Shown: positions 12,058-14,807 of the stretch, one piece after another
Position numbering within the stretch: position 1 is the first letter of the stretch
Layout: each line of letters starts with the position of its first letter
DNA from: an uncultured Bacteroidia bacterium
GTDB taxonomy: Bacteria > Bacteroidota > Bacteroidia > Bacteroidales > UBA932
Length of the DNA: 33,122 nucleotides
NCBI GenBank assembly: GCA_902779765.1
Contig: CACZCQ010000020.1
Location: 1 to 33,122, forward strand
Direction: 5' to 3'
Notes under the pieces: generated by a model
What the model saw: the letters and a program-made list of their open reading frames with translations, nothing else
What the model was told of the DNA's origin: nothing
Databases searched by the model: none
Program-made: the position numbers and the translations under genes

Positions 12058-13545
12058 ATGCTCAATTACTCGTATTGCTCGGACAAGTACCAGTACACCA
12101 TGGGAAAGTCTTTTTTTGAAACCGGAAGGAAAGACGAAATCGCGGTTTTCAACATGTTCTACAGGGTCGCCCCCGAAAACAACAACTGGGCGGTATGCAG
12201 CGGCACCGAAGAGGTGATCGAATGCGTCCTCAACCTGGGCAAGGCAGATCCTGATTTCTTCGAGAGGTTCCTCCCCGGAGAAGGTTATGCGGAGTTCCGC
12301 AAGTACCTGTCAACCATGAAATTCACCGGGAACGTATATGCAATGCGCGAGGGCGAGATCGTATTCCCCAACCAGCCCATCATAACGGTTGAAGCGCCCC
12401 TCATCGAGGCACAGGTCCTGGAAACCCCGATGCTCTGCATAATGAACCACCAGATGGCCGTCGCCACCAAGGCCTCCAGGGTCTGCAGGGCGACAAACCG
12501 TCCGGTCAGCGAATTTGGATCCAGGAGGGCTCACGGTCCCTGGGCCGCAACCTATGGTGCCAAGGCTGCTATCATCGCCGGCTGTGCAAGTACGTCGAAC
12601 GTCCTGACCGGAGTGATGAACGGAGTCCCTTCGACCGGAACCATGGCACACAGCTTCGTCACCTCCTATGGCAGTTCCGTGGAGGGTGAGCACAGGGCTT
12701 TCGTGGATTACTGCAAGACCCACATGGGAGAGAACCTGATCCTCCTGATCGACACTTACGACACTTTGAAGTGCGGTGTCCTGAATGCGATACGTTCCTT
12801 CAGGGAATGCGGCATCGATGACGACTACGCCCCCGGATACGGGATACGTCTCGACAGTGGTGACCTCGCCTACCTTTCCCAGAAAGTCCGCAAGGCTCTC
12901 GACGCCCACGGAATGAAGAAGTGCAAGATATTCGCAACCAATTCCCTGGACGAATACCTGATCTCCGACCTTGAGAAGCAGGGAGCCTGCATCGACTCAT
13001 ACGGAGTCGGTGACGCAATCGCCACCAGCAAGGCCGCCCCTTGCTTCGGCAATGTCTACAAGCTGGTCCAGATCGACGGCGAGCCGGTGCTCAAGCGTTC
13101 AGAAGACACCATCAAACTGATCAATCCCGGTTTCCAGATCACATACAGGATCATCAAGACCGATCCCGACAACGGAGAGATATACAAAGCCGACGTGACC
13201 TGCCTGCGCGGGGATTCGATTGCGAGGAAGATCGAGGCGGGTGAAGAATTCACGATATTCGCAGAGGCCGACAGGTTCAAGCACAAGACGTTCGAGGCTG
13301 GATCATATACCTGGAGAACCCTTCAGCTTCAGGTCGTAAAGGATGGTAAGGACTGCTCGGAGAAGCATACGCTGATGGAGAAGAAGGCCTTCTTCAATGA
13401 TACCCTGGCTCACTTCAGCCCTTCGGAAAGGCGTCTCATCAACCCGCATTACTACAAGGTCGACATTTCCGAGGACCTCTACGACAAGAAGATATCGATG
13501 CTCGAGCGGATCAATCAGGAGATCGCCGCTTTCCGCATCGATTAG
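12058..13545 (+). CDS. pncB: Nicotinate phosphoribosyltransferase
   Basis: Joins nicotinate to PRPP to give nicotinate mononucleotide in NAD salvage. The 495-residue length and motifs fit the long bacterial type: NYSYCSDKYQYTMGKSFFE at the N-terminus, FGSRRAHGPWAATYGAKAA, GTMAHSFVTSYG (containing the His that is phosphorylated in the family), LIDTYDTLKCGV, GIRLDSGDLAYLS and FATNSLDEYLI. It lies 11 bp after murI. The PRPP synthase prs is in the same window in another transcription unit. The stop is followed within 12 bp by the first palindromic element of the convergent gap. Confidence 0.95.
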   Translation: MLNYSYCSDKYQYTMGKSFFETGRKDEIAVFNMFYRVAPENNNWAVCSGTEEVIECVLNLGKADPDFFERFLPGEGYAEFRKYLSTMKFTGNVYAMREGEIVFPNQPIITVEAPLIEAQVLETPMLCIMNHQMAVATKASRVCRATNRPVSEFGSRRAHGPWAATYGAKAAIIAGCASTSNVLTGVMNGVPSTGTMAHSFVTSYGSSVEGEHRAFVDYCKTHMGENLILLIDTYDTLKCGVLNAIRSFRECGIDDDYAPGYGIRLDSGDLAYLSQKVRKALDAHGMKKCKIFATNSLDEYLISDLEKQGACIDSYGVGDAIATSKAAPCFGNVYKLVQIDGEPVLKRSEDTIKLINPGFQITYRIIKTDPDNGEIYKADVTCLRGDSIARKIEAGEEFTIFAEADRFKHKTFEAGSYTWRTLQLQVVKDGKDCSEKHTLMEKKAFFNDTLAHFSPSERRLINPHYYKVDISEDLYDKKISMLERINQEIAAFRID

Positions 13546-13557
13546 CCTTCGTAGCTC

Positions 13558-13689
13558 TTGTTCCAACCCTGCTATACCGAAACCCTTCGGGCATAAATGC
13601 CCTCGTCCCACCACCGGACAAGCCGGCGGTCCCCCCGTTCACGTGGCCACGGGCGGCCACGGGTTTCTTGCATAGCAGGATTGGAACAA
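13558..13689. repeat. Palindromic, multi-hairpin element A (repeat or structured RNA)
   Basis: A 132-bp unit closed by 18-bp inverted arms, 13558-13575 and 13672-13689, with one mismatch that becomes a G.U pair in RNA. A second stem follows inside (GAAACCC 13579-13585 with GGGTTTC 13661-13667). That stem encloses three local hairpins: GGGCA/TGCCC (13589-13602), ACC-CCGG/CCGG-GGT (13610-13630) and GTGGCC/GGCCAC (13643-13660). The predicted fold is a cloverleaf-like four-way junction. Open frames here are short and unconvincing. It could be a non-autonomous palindromic repeat (MITE/REP type) or a structured RNA; the sequence alone cannot decide. Confidence 0.6.
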
Positions 13690-13697
13690 CGGCAACT

Positions 13698-13859
13698 GTG
13701 TACCATTAGACCTCCGGGGGCTTGGCCCCCCTCGGCCAAGGGAAGAGGGATGGGGCCCACTGAATACGAGTTATTGCGGCAGCAATGACGAAGTAGGCAG
13801 TGGGAGGGTACGAAGTGGAGCGAAGCGGAACGGAGCCCCCCGGAGGTCCAAAGGTACAC
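13698..13859. repeat. Palindromic, multi-hairpin element B (repeat or structured RNA)
   Basis: A 162-bp unit 8 bp after element A. Outer arms GTGTACC (13698-13704) and GGTACAC (13853-13859) are followed, after a small internal loop, by a 14-bp GC-rich stem, 13709-13722 with 13834-13848, having one bulged C. Inside are a hairpin TTGGCC/GGCCAA (13722-13739) and a long arm CCCACTG/CAGTGGG (13756-13762/13798-13804) that carries an ATTGC/GCAAT hairpin at 13773-13786. A purine-rich stretch at 13811-13833 is not clearly paired. No convincing gene is inside. Same interpretation as element A, but sequence and stem layout differ, so it is a separate unit. Confidence 0.6.
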
Positions 13860-13901
13860 GGGAGGATGCTGCTAGAATCTATATTCCTGGTACCTGGTAT
13901 T

Positions 13902-14807
13902 CTAAAGGATAGCGACGAGGCGCTCGAGCCAGTAGGCGTCGATGCGGTCGAAGGTGGAGAGTTCGGTGCTGTCGATGTCCAGGACTCCGGTGACTTCACC
14001 GGAACCGGAATGCATGGGAACGACTATCTCTGAACGGGAAAGCGACGAACATGCTATGTGCCCCGGGAATTCCTCCACGTCCGGAACGACTATCGTACGG
14101 TCCTCCTTCCATGCAGTACCGCATACTCCCTTCCCGAAACCTATACGCATGCATGCTACAGGGCCCTGGAAAGGCCCAAGGACAAGCTGTGAGTCCTTGA
14201 CCAGATAGAAACCCGTCCAGAAGAAACCCATCTTCTCTTTCAGGAGAGCCGCCGTGTTCGAGAGCCTTGCTACTACGTCCGTCTCATCCAGGAGCAACGC
14301 CTTGAGGTCCCGGACCAACCGGGGATATCGGAATATCTTCAGGGGCAGGTGGCAATACCCGTCGGGATTCTTGACCAGGTAATCCTGATGCCTTGCGTCT
14401 GCGGCATAGAAATTCCGGAGAGGTTCGAGTTCCACCGCCAGCGGTCCTCCAAACTCCGCCTGGACCTCGTCGAAAACTGTCCGGATTGTCTCCAGCTCGC
14501 CCGGATCGGTATAATAAACACCTGTACGATAGCGGGTTCCGCAGTCTTCTCCCTGCTTGTTCACGCTCAGCGGGTCGATCGCCACGAAATAATCCCGTAC
14601 CAGTTCCGCCAGTGAAATCACCGACGGGTCGTAGACCACTTTGACGGTCTCGGCGTATCCGGTCGTATCGGTGTAGACCTGCTCATAGGTCGGTGAAGGA
14701 GTGTCTCCGTTGGCGAAACCCACCTCGGTATCGACCACACCCTCGATGTTGCTGAAATAGTGCTCTGCTCCCCAGAAGCAGCCGCCGGCAAGGTAGACCT
14801 CTTTCAT
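13902..14807 (-). CDS. msrA: MsrA - free methionine-(R)-sulfoxide reductase (GAF) fusion
   Basis: A 301-residue fusion of two repair enzymes. Residues 1-~160 are peptide methionine-(S)-sulfoxide reductase A, with catalytic Cys10 in GGCFWGAEHYF and the motifs GYAETVKVVYDP and RYRTGVYY. Residues ~165-301 are a GAF-fold free methionine-(R)-sulfoxide reductase (fRMsr/MsrC type): MGFFWTGFYLV, LVLGPFQGPVACMRI, GVCGTA, GHIACSS and GVLDIDST. The three fRMsr cysteines are Cys219, Cys229 and Cys253, with the same 10- and 24-residue spacing as Cys84/94/118 of E. coli fRMsr. The frame is uninterrupted. The start overlaps the xseB stop by 4 bp (ATGA), so the gene ends the xseA-xseB operon. Confidence 0.9.
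   Translation of the reverse strand: MKEVYLAGGCFWGAEHYFSNIEGVVDTEVGFANGDTPSPTYEQVYTDTTGYAETVKVVYDPSVISLAELVRDYFVAIDPLSVNKQGEDCGTRYRTGVYYTDPGELETIRTVFDEVQAEFGGPLAVELEPLRNFYAADARHQDYLVKNPDGYCHLPLKIFRYPRLVRDLKALLLDETDVVARLSNTAALLKEKMGFFWTGFYLVKDSQLVLGPFQGPVACMRIGFGKGVCGTAWKEDRTIVVPDVEEFPGHIACSSLSRSEIVVPMHSGSGEVTGVLDIDSTELSTFDRIDAYWLERLVAIL

Follow-up and report, generated by a model that had tools for sequence, protein, structure and literature searches.

A dispersed palindromic element with a conserved core and locus-specific stems in a genus of gut Bacteroidales

Element A and its locus

The window analysed here is a stretch of 33,122 nucleotides from an uncultured Bacteroidia bacterium (contig CACZCQ010000020.1), and the element in question, element A, is a palindrome lying between the convergent genes pncB (+) and msrA-GAF (-). 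Element A belongs to a family of dispersed, non-autonomous palindromes in a large genus of gut Bacteroidales. Members of this family are scattered through genomes and leave some relatives with empty sites; their outer stems mostly differ from locus to locus while remaining almost perfectly complementary, their conserved core inverts at fixed sites, and that core consists of short hairpins and a pseudoknot with covarying pairs. On balance, the family is probably a non-autonomous mobile palindrome in which template switching keeps the arms complementary and flips the core.

An earlier note on this DNA, made from the letters of the window, had described a cloverleaf-like element in a convergent-gene setting, and that setting stands. 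Its 18-bp outer stem is present (13558-13575 with 13672-13689), as are the inner stem and hairpins that the note judged beyond chance; the folding energy of the element (z -6.27 on the + strand, -6.91 on the - strand) is better than that of all 200 dinucleotide shuffles of either strand. The lone mismatch was misread: it is C.A on the + strand, where the family core and pseudoknot are defined, and G.U on the - strand only. Inverted-arm detection extends the arms to 13551-13575 and 13672-13696 at 84% complementarity. The claim that there is no credible coding frame needs qualification: mechanical open reading frames cross element A (13397-13675 on +, 13572-13859 on -), and relatives of the element lie in frame within a real gene of glycoside hydrolase family 92 (GH92). 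The closest named records of the neighbouring MsrA-GAF protein are, among the best 80 of 102, mostly ruminant-stomach metagenome bins labelled Bacteroidales or Bacteroidia; the genus may be Cryptobacteroides. In the window, element A probably has no host function beyond filling the convergent gene junction.

Table 1. Features of the pncB/msrA junction and its flanks
Feature	Position	Strand	Evidence or remark
Element A, complete with both outer arms	13558..13689	+	Inverted arms, folds, covariance-model match 13572-13675 at 77.1 bits (element A is among the 23 rows of the model)
Left arm, outer locus-specific stem	13558..13575	+	Hypervariable across the family
Right arm, outer stem	13672..13689	+	One mismatch, C13567.A13680
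Inner stem, 5' strand GAAACCC, partner 13661-13667	13579..13585	+	Fold; the family partly conserves the AAAC/GTTT base
Inner stem, 3' strand GGGTTTC	13661..13667	+	Fold
Hairpin 1, GGGCAT..ATGCCC	13589..13602	+	Sequence and fold
Hairpin 2, CC.CCGG..CCGG.GG	13611..13629	+	Sequence and fold
Pseudoknot stem S1, CCCGT 13634-13638 with ACGGG 13649-13653	13634..13653	+	Covariation, 70 distinct family sequences
Pseudoknot stem S2, CGTGGCC 13642-13648 with GGCCACG 13655-13661, crossing S1	13642..13661	+	Covariation
pncB, nicotinate phosphoribosyltransferase, left neighbour	12058..13545	+	Pfam NAPRTase_N, NAPRTase_C
MsrA + GAF domain protein, right neighbour, convergent	13902..14807	-	Pfam PMSR, GAF
Element B, remote family member, own 23-bp outer stem, 8 nt from A	13698..13859	-	Inverted arms, folds, model match

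A conserved core within a mostly locus-specific stem

A DNA search with element A found its core at E<=1e-3 in 24 of 36 genomes of the same genus. Other families of the order, represented by 24 genomes, had none at this level, and their best value was 0.02. Copy number varies widely within the genus, with 0 to 32 matches per genome at E<=0.01 across 14 genomes and the maximum in the nearly complete genome G016. The suggestion in the earlier note that many dispersed copies would mark a non-autonomous repeat thus points the right way, and so does the finding that some relatives lack the element at this gene junction. The many copies also exclude a unique syntenic RNA. A BLAST search of the element's own genome returned no full second copy, but this is a false negative because a covariance model built from 23 elements recovered one between mnmG and ruvA (C7:142868-142973, 65.5 bits). 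That copy lies outside the 23 rows of the model, has a long stem of its own and folds with z -8.96.

At the scale of the order, a covariance search run with strict filters on 247 genomes was positive in five at E<=0.001: the element's own genome, one other genus of its family and three other families. It was negative in G253, the only other genome of the genus drawn, and in G622, from a second genus of the family. Whole-genome searches over 200-400 genomes scored only two or three candidates per genome, so that missing orthologues there mean little. Rfam gave no match at gathering score across the window and none up to E 5 within 13500-13900; when the limit was relaxed to E 5, four loci gave seven matches, all far under gathering, among them MIR8622, which overlaps the L012 element at 28 bits against a gathering score of 197. 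Within one open-licence library, no account of such an element appeared by title or abstract start.

The family was described from 111 elements, collected from fetched loci by one regular expression with an arm score of at least 9; they are distinct and include orthologues. A subset of 67 omits listed orthologues as well as arms or cores beyond the length range. Most elements measure about 105-140 bp, with a core spacer of mostly 57-95 nt. None of the 111 has a T-run (at least 7 T in 10 nt) beside either arm, which bears out the earlier statement that no intrinsic terminator is marked here. One draft contig (the end of G083:C61, L191) stops within an element, as if the palindrome had broken the assembly, so draft genomes may understate the number of copies; at the start of G013:C2 (L042), the element stands in three tandem copies with a period of about 305 nt.

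The outer stem seems to be kept as structure and not as sequence. Arms have a median length of 26 nt (15-32 nt at the 5th-95th percentile) and pair in 2641 of 2800 ungapped columns, about 94%, with 57 more columns gapped; 15 of the 111 elements have perfect arms of at least 18 bp. In the subset of 67, every position from 1 to 26, counted outwards from the core, is filled by each of the four Watson-Crick pairs in one element or another, with a strong C/A bias at positions 1-5 and a G-rich left arm at positions 15-24 that amounts to a weak shared consensus. The separation of core and stem is plainest in G016, whose seven copies have a mean core identity of 95% and a stem identity of 38% at positions 6-22; with gaps allowed, stem identity is 0.56 against a shuffled expectation of 0.45 (sd 0.07).

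Orthologous copies behave differently from copies at separate sites. Related species keep at least 68% of the left arm at the same site in 10 of 12 pairs, with 21 of 22 and 22 of 22 positions in G016/G083 as examples. Divergent pairs also exist: L176/L177, whose flanks are about 91% identical, share 13 of 24 positions in each arm, and L341/L253, whose flanks are about 85% identical, share 14 of 28 and 15 of 30. Gradual drift was accordingly rejected as the sole cause, since most orthologous pairs barely change and yet these two diverge. At the L058 site, G016 and G083 differ by four compensated double changes within 19 bp, as read by eye.

The 3' half of the core can form an H-type pseudoknot, in which S1 (CCCGT/ACGGG) is crossed by S2 (CGTGGCC/GGCCACG). 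From 143 raw hits, 74 distinct sequences were obtained and 70 retained; of the four dropped, two are unlike the element and two (L086, L199) are real members that fail the filter. In these 70 sequences, 93.1% of the pseudoknot cells pair, and 58 cells are changed on both sides against 9.4 in shuffles, which gives the covariance check proposed earlier a positive answer. The covariation score is 0.244 against 0.108 when shuffled (reached by 0 of 500) and 0.016-0.094 in slid controls. Two counts do not exceed shuffles: the six pairs with a change on both sides (reached by 99 of 500) and the 14 further pair types (348 of 500). In S2, one pair is a mismatch in most of the sequences (42 of 70); leaving it out, 14 wobble pairs stand against 8 A.C, too few to name an active strand. 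Conservation of the core structure, with compensated changes, is real. Its value as proof is limited by the relatedness of the rows and by a DNA-level alternative, because pseudoknot pairs are also inverted repeats in DNA and copying at that level could maintain them too.

The core can also turn around while the arms stay in place. Base-by-base reading revealed inversions between species at two sites in G016/G083 and within one gene in G017/G320/G235, whereas the L055 and L058 sites of G016/G083 keep their core orientation. Over all fetched loci, 17 site groups have an occupied pair whose flanks are at least 75% identical, and 9 of them contain a flip; at 85% or above it is three of nine; one case included in the count, L217/L220, resembles recombination between paralogous genes. 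At the pncB/msrA junction of the window, G212 and G185 are occupied in opposite core orientations with a stem unlike that of element A, while G167 and G175 lack the element and have their stop codons only 16-17 nt apart. Across relatives, any one junction is occupied only sporadically. No consistent direct target duplication was seen in the few occupied/empty pairs, which were read by eye only.

In one gene type, assigned to GH92 by a Pfam run on the single locus L012, the element sits directly behind the signal peptide. The frame is open through the whole element in seven loci, covering both core orientations, and in one further locus with a shortened element; two empty relatives display a plain junction. 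In this exported enzyme, the repeat contributes an invertible stretch of about 40 residues after the signal peptide. Loci of this type with an in-frame element after the signal peptide are L012, L205, L207, L216, L217, L220, L224 and L215.

Explanations for the complementary arms

The earlier note had taken the wobble mismatch as a hint of selection on RNA. Selection on RNA of the core strand predicts more G.U than A.C mismatches, and the 111 elements, oriented by their cores, have 38 G.U, 63 A.C and 58 other mismatches, so the wobble argument fails. A fixed sense strand is unlikely, given the core flips. The absence of a core-strand G.U excess, together with these flips, suggests that the stem is maintained at the DNA level. 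This matters because compensatory changes are usually read as proof of a selected RNA; here about 100 natural stems, with all base pairs exchanged, no core-strand G.U excess and inverted cores, offer a test of how far replication alone can keep stems perfect.

In the favoured explanation, a palindrome would insert and, during or after insertion, its arms would be held complementary mainly by replication template switching. Within the palindrome, such switching would copy one arm onto the other and invert the spacer, so that compensated changes of several bases, and flipped cores, would arise with no need for selection on the sequence of the stem. The folded core, as RNA or single-stranded DNA, may be the recognition target of some mobilising enzyme. 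Precedents come from two sources: a yeast study in which template switching between inverted repeats is reported to homogenise arms and invert spacers (PMC8604942), and a study in which it is reported to create and repair RNA stems (PMC8794818). The likeness to quasipalindromes and short-range template switches thus lies in arm homogenisation and spacer inversion. The difference is that these belong to a mutation process, with inverted spacers of 2-5 bp in the yeast study (PMC8604942), whereas the present family consists of dispersed elements.

Several observations weigh against this explanation. The spacer of the elements is far longer than in those published inversions. A mobilising enzyme was not found: 0 of 29 loci with Y1 transposases (12 genomes) carry any of three core patterns, Y1 being the one transposase family tried. 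No insertion was caught in the act, and some of the sites counted as empty appear to have lost their element secondarily. Such a loss is likely in G235, which has no element where both G320, its 97% relative, and the more distant G017 have one. Slow change in place does not obviously account for the near-identical cores with unrelated stems in G016. Some copies do have common or related stems, namely those of G013 with a common stem, some of G027 with related stems and a recurring AGTGG..GTAAGTTTGG group. A selected RNA would give the same pseudoknot covariation, and the 63 to 38 ratio is itself an excess of G.U on the opposite strand, which mildly favours an RNA of that strand, although the excess is modest and the rows are not independent.

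The stem may be rewritten at insertion or in bursts afterwards. The first option leads to the best-placed rival, which is possible but considerably less probable than template switching: the outer stem would be made anew at each insertion, either by snap-back synthesis that starts from the AAAC/GTTT base as primer and copies the target in inverted form, or on some other template. The near-random stems around 95% identical cores in G016, alongside the 10 of 12 orthologous pairs that retain most of the arm, are what such a step would leave. The GH92 loci add a specific case, read by eye: the outermost 7-10 bp of the stem (CGTTTCCGGC) are native codons that also occur in the empty relatives, they are repeated in inverted form on the far side, and downstream codons are kept. 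Against this, no clear match emerged when arms and empty junctions were compared systematically. The lowest uncorrected p values were 0.010 at rnfC, whose outer arm extends over native codons, and 0.013 for L234/L212, and the GH92 pairs ranged from 0.11 to 0.72; the G-rich positions 15-24 of the left arm argue that the element carries part of its stem along. A stricter version, suggested by the rnfC site, in which the whole stem is an inverted target duplication, was rejected, as the loose stem consensus makes the rnfC GGCAGGGGACAAAGGTAA look element-derived and arms and empty junctions do not match in general.

Selection at gene ends for a transcribed structured RNA, such as an element of the 3' untranslated region or a small RNA, would fit the covarying pseudoknot, the strong folds and the positions between tandem (28 of 104) and convergent (22 of 104) open frames; a further 42 of 104 elements lie within a longer open frame, an upper bound for real genes since frames were taken stop to stop at 120 codons or more. 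Such an RNA appears unlikely as an explanation for the family, given that stem mismatches lack a G.U bias on the core strand, that inversion at fixed sites would swap the RNA for its complement, that copy number and presence at given junctions are so uneven, and that T-runs are missing throughout. A classical miniature inverted-repeat transposable element moved by an ordinary DDE transposase is very improbable: the family shares its small size, inverted arms, dispersal and lack of a transposase gene of its own, but its arms vary by locus in most genomes (G013, with its common stem, is the exception) and so are not terminal repeats that a transposase recognises, and the few sites read by eye show no consistent target duplication.

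Going beyond template switching as such, the family could, tentatively, represent a new kind of mobile element, although this remains rather doubtful. It would have a pseudoknotted core, no fixed ends and a fresh locus-specific stem at each insertion that is kept by palindrome copying; its core would flip, the fold instead of any terminal sequence would govern its mobilisation, and the genes of at least one family of exported enzymes would carry it as an in-frame invertible peptide cassette. The question raised is how an element without conserved ends moves.

Related systems and neighbouring repeats

Small extragenic palindromes are known from repetitive extragenic palindromic sequences and bacterial interspersed mosaic elements, which are associated with Y1 transposases of the RAYT type (REP-associated tyrosine transposases). 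The family differs in that none of the 29 Y1-domain loci has an element core, and no known transposon end, which the earlier note had named as a possible refutation, was recognised. The terminal hairpins of adeno-associated virus and other parvoviruses are T-shaped palindromes whose inner part occurs in two orientations; this is a resemblance only, the family having no evidence of a terminal-resolution enzyme.

Families of Rickettsia palindromic elements share sequence over their length, whereas the outer stem of the present family is mostly unshared and its core inverts. The likeness, which is one of description, is to repeats of about 150 bp that are scattered between and inside genes and often in frame (PMC10969869); the in-frame copies in GH92 genes are the counterpart here. 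The repetitive hairpin and double-hairpin elements of mitochondria are likewise small hairpin-forming repeats without a known enzyme. In those of sponge mitochondria, stems are conserved and loops vary (PMC2800124). That pattern is largely reversed in this family, and the conserved inner region within a free stem is its unusual part.

The covariance model, searched against 8 sources, matches element B, beside element A in the window, with E 5.5e-4 at 13848-13709 of the - strand. A similarly opposed pair occurs elsewhere in the same genome (G000:C5:6144-6443, L009), with different stems and related cores; element B and this pair are weak matches to the model, at E 8e-5 to 2e-3.

The pattern of locus-specific stems may be wider in the genus than the family of element A. 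Downstream of the element in L353, and at the L219 junction, lies a palindromic repeat whose core is of another kind (ATGCCACCC..GGCCAGGGGGTGCC) and whose outer stem, 20-25 bp long, is again specific to the locus. A different repeat (GTCATTCTGAAC...) takes the position at the rnfC-rnfD junction of L089 where other species have the element. In L361, extra structured sequence interrupts the core and may be a nested insertion. To the left of the element in L118, a unit of about 19 nt stands in three tandem copies, and the end of the unit is the outer arm of the element.
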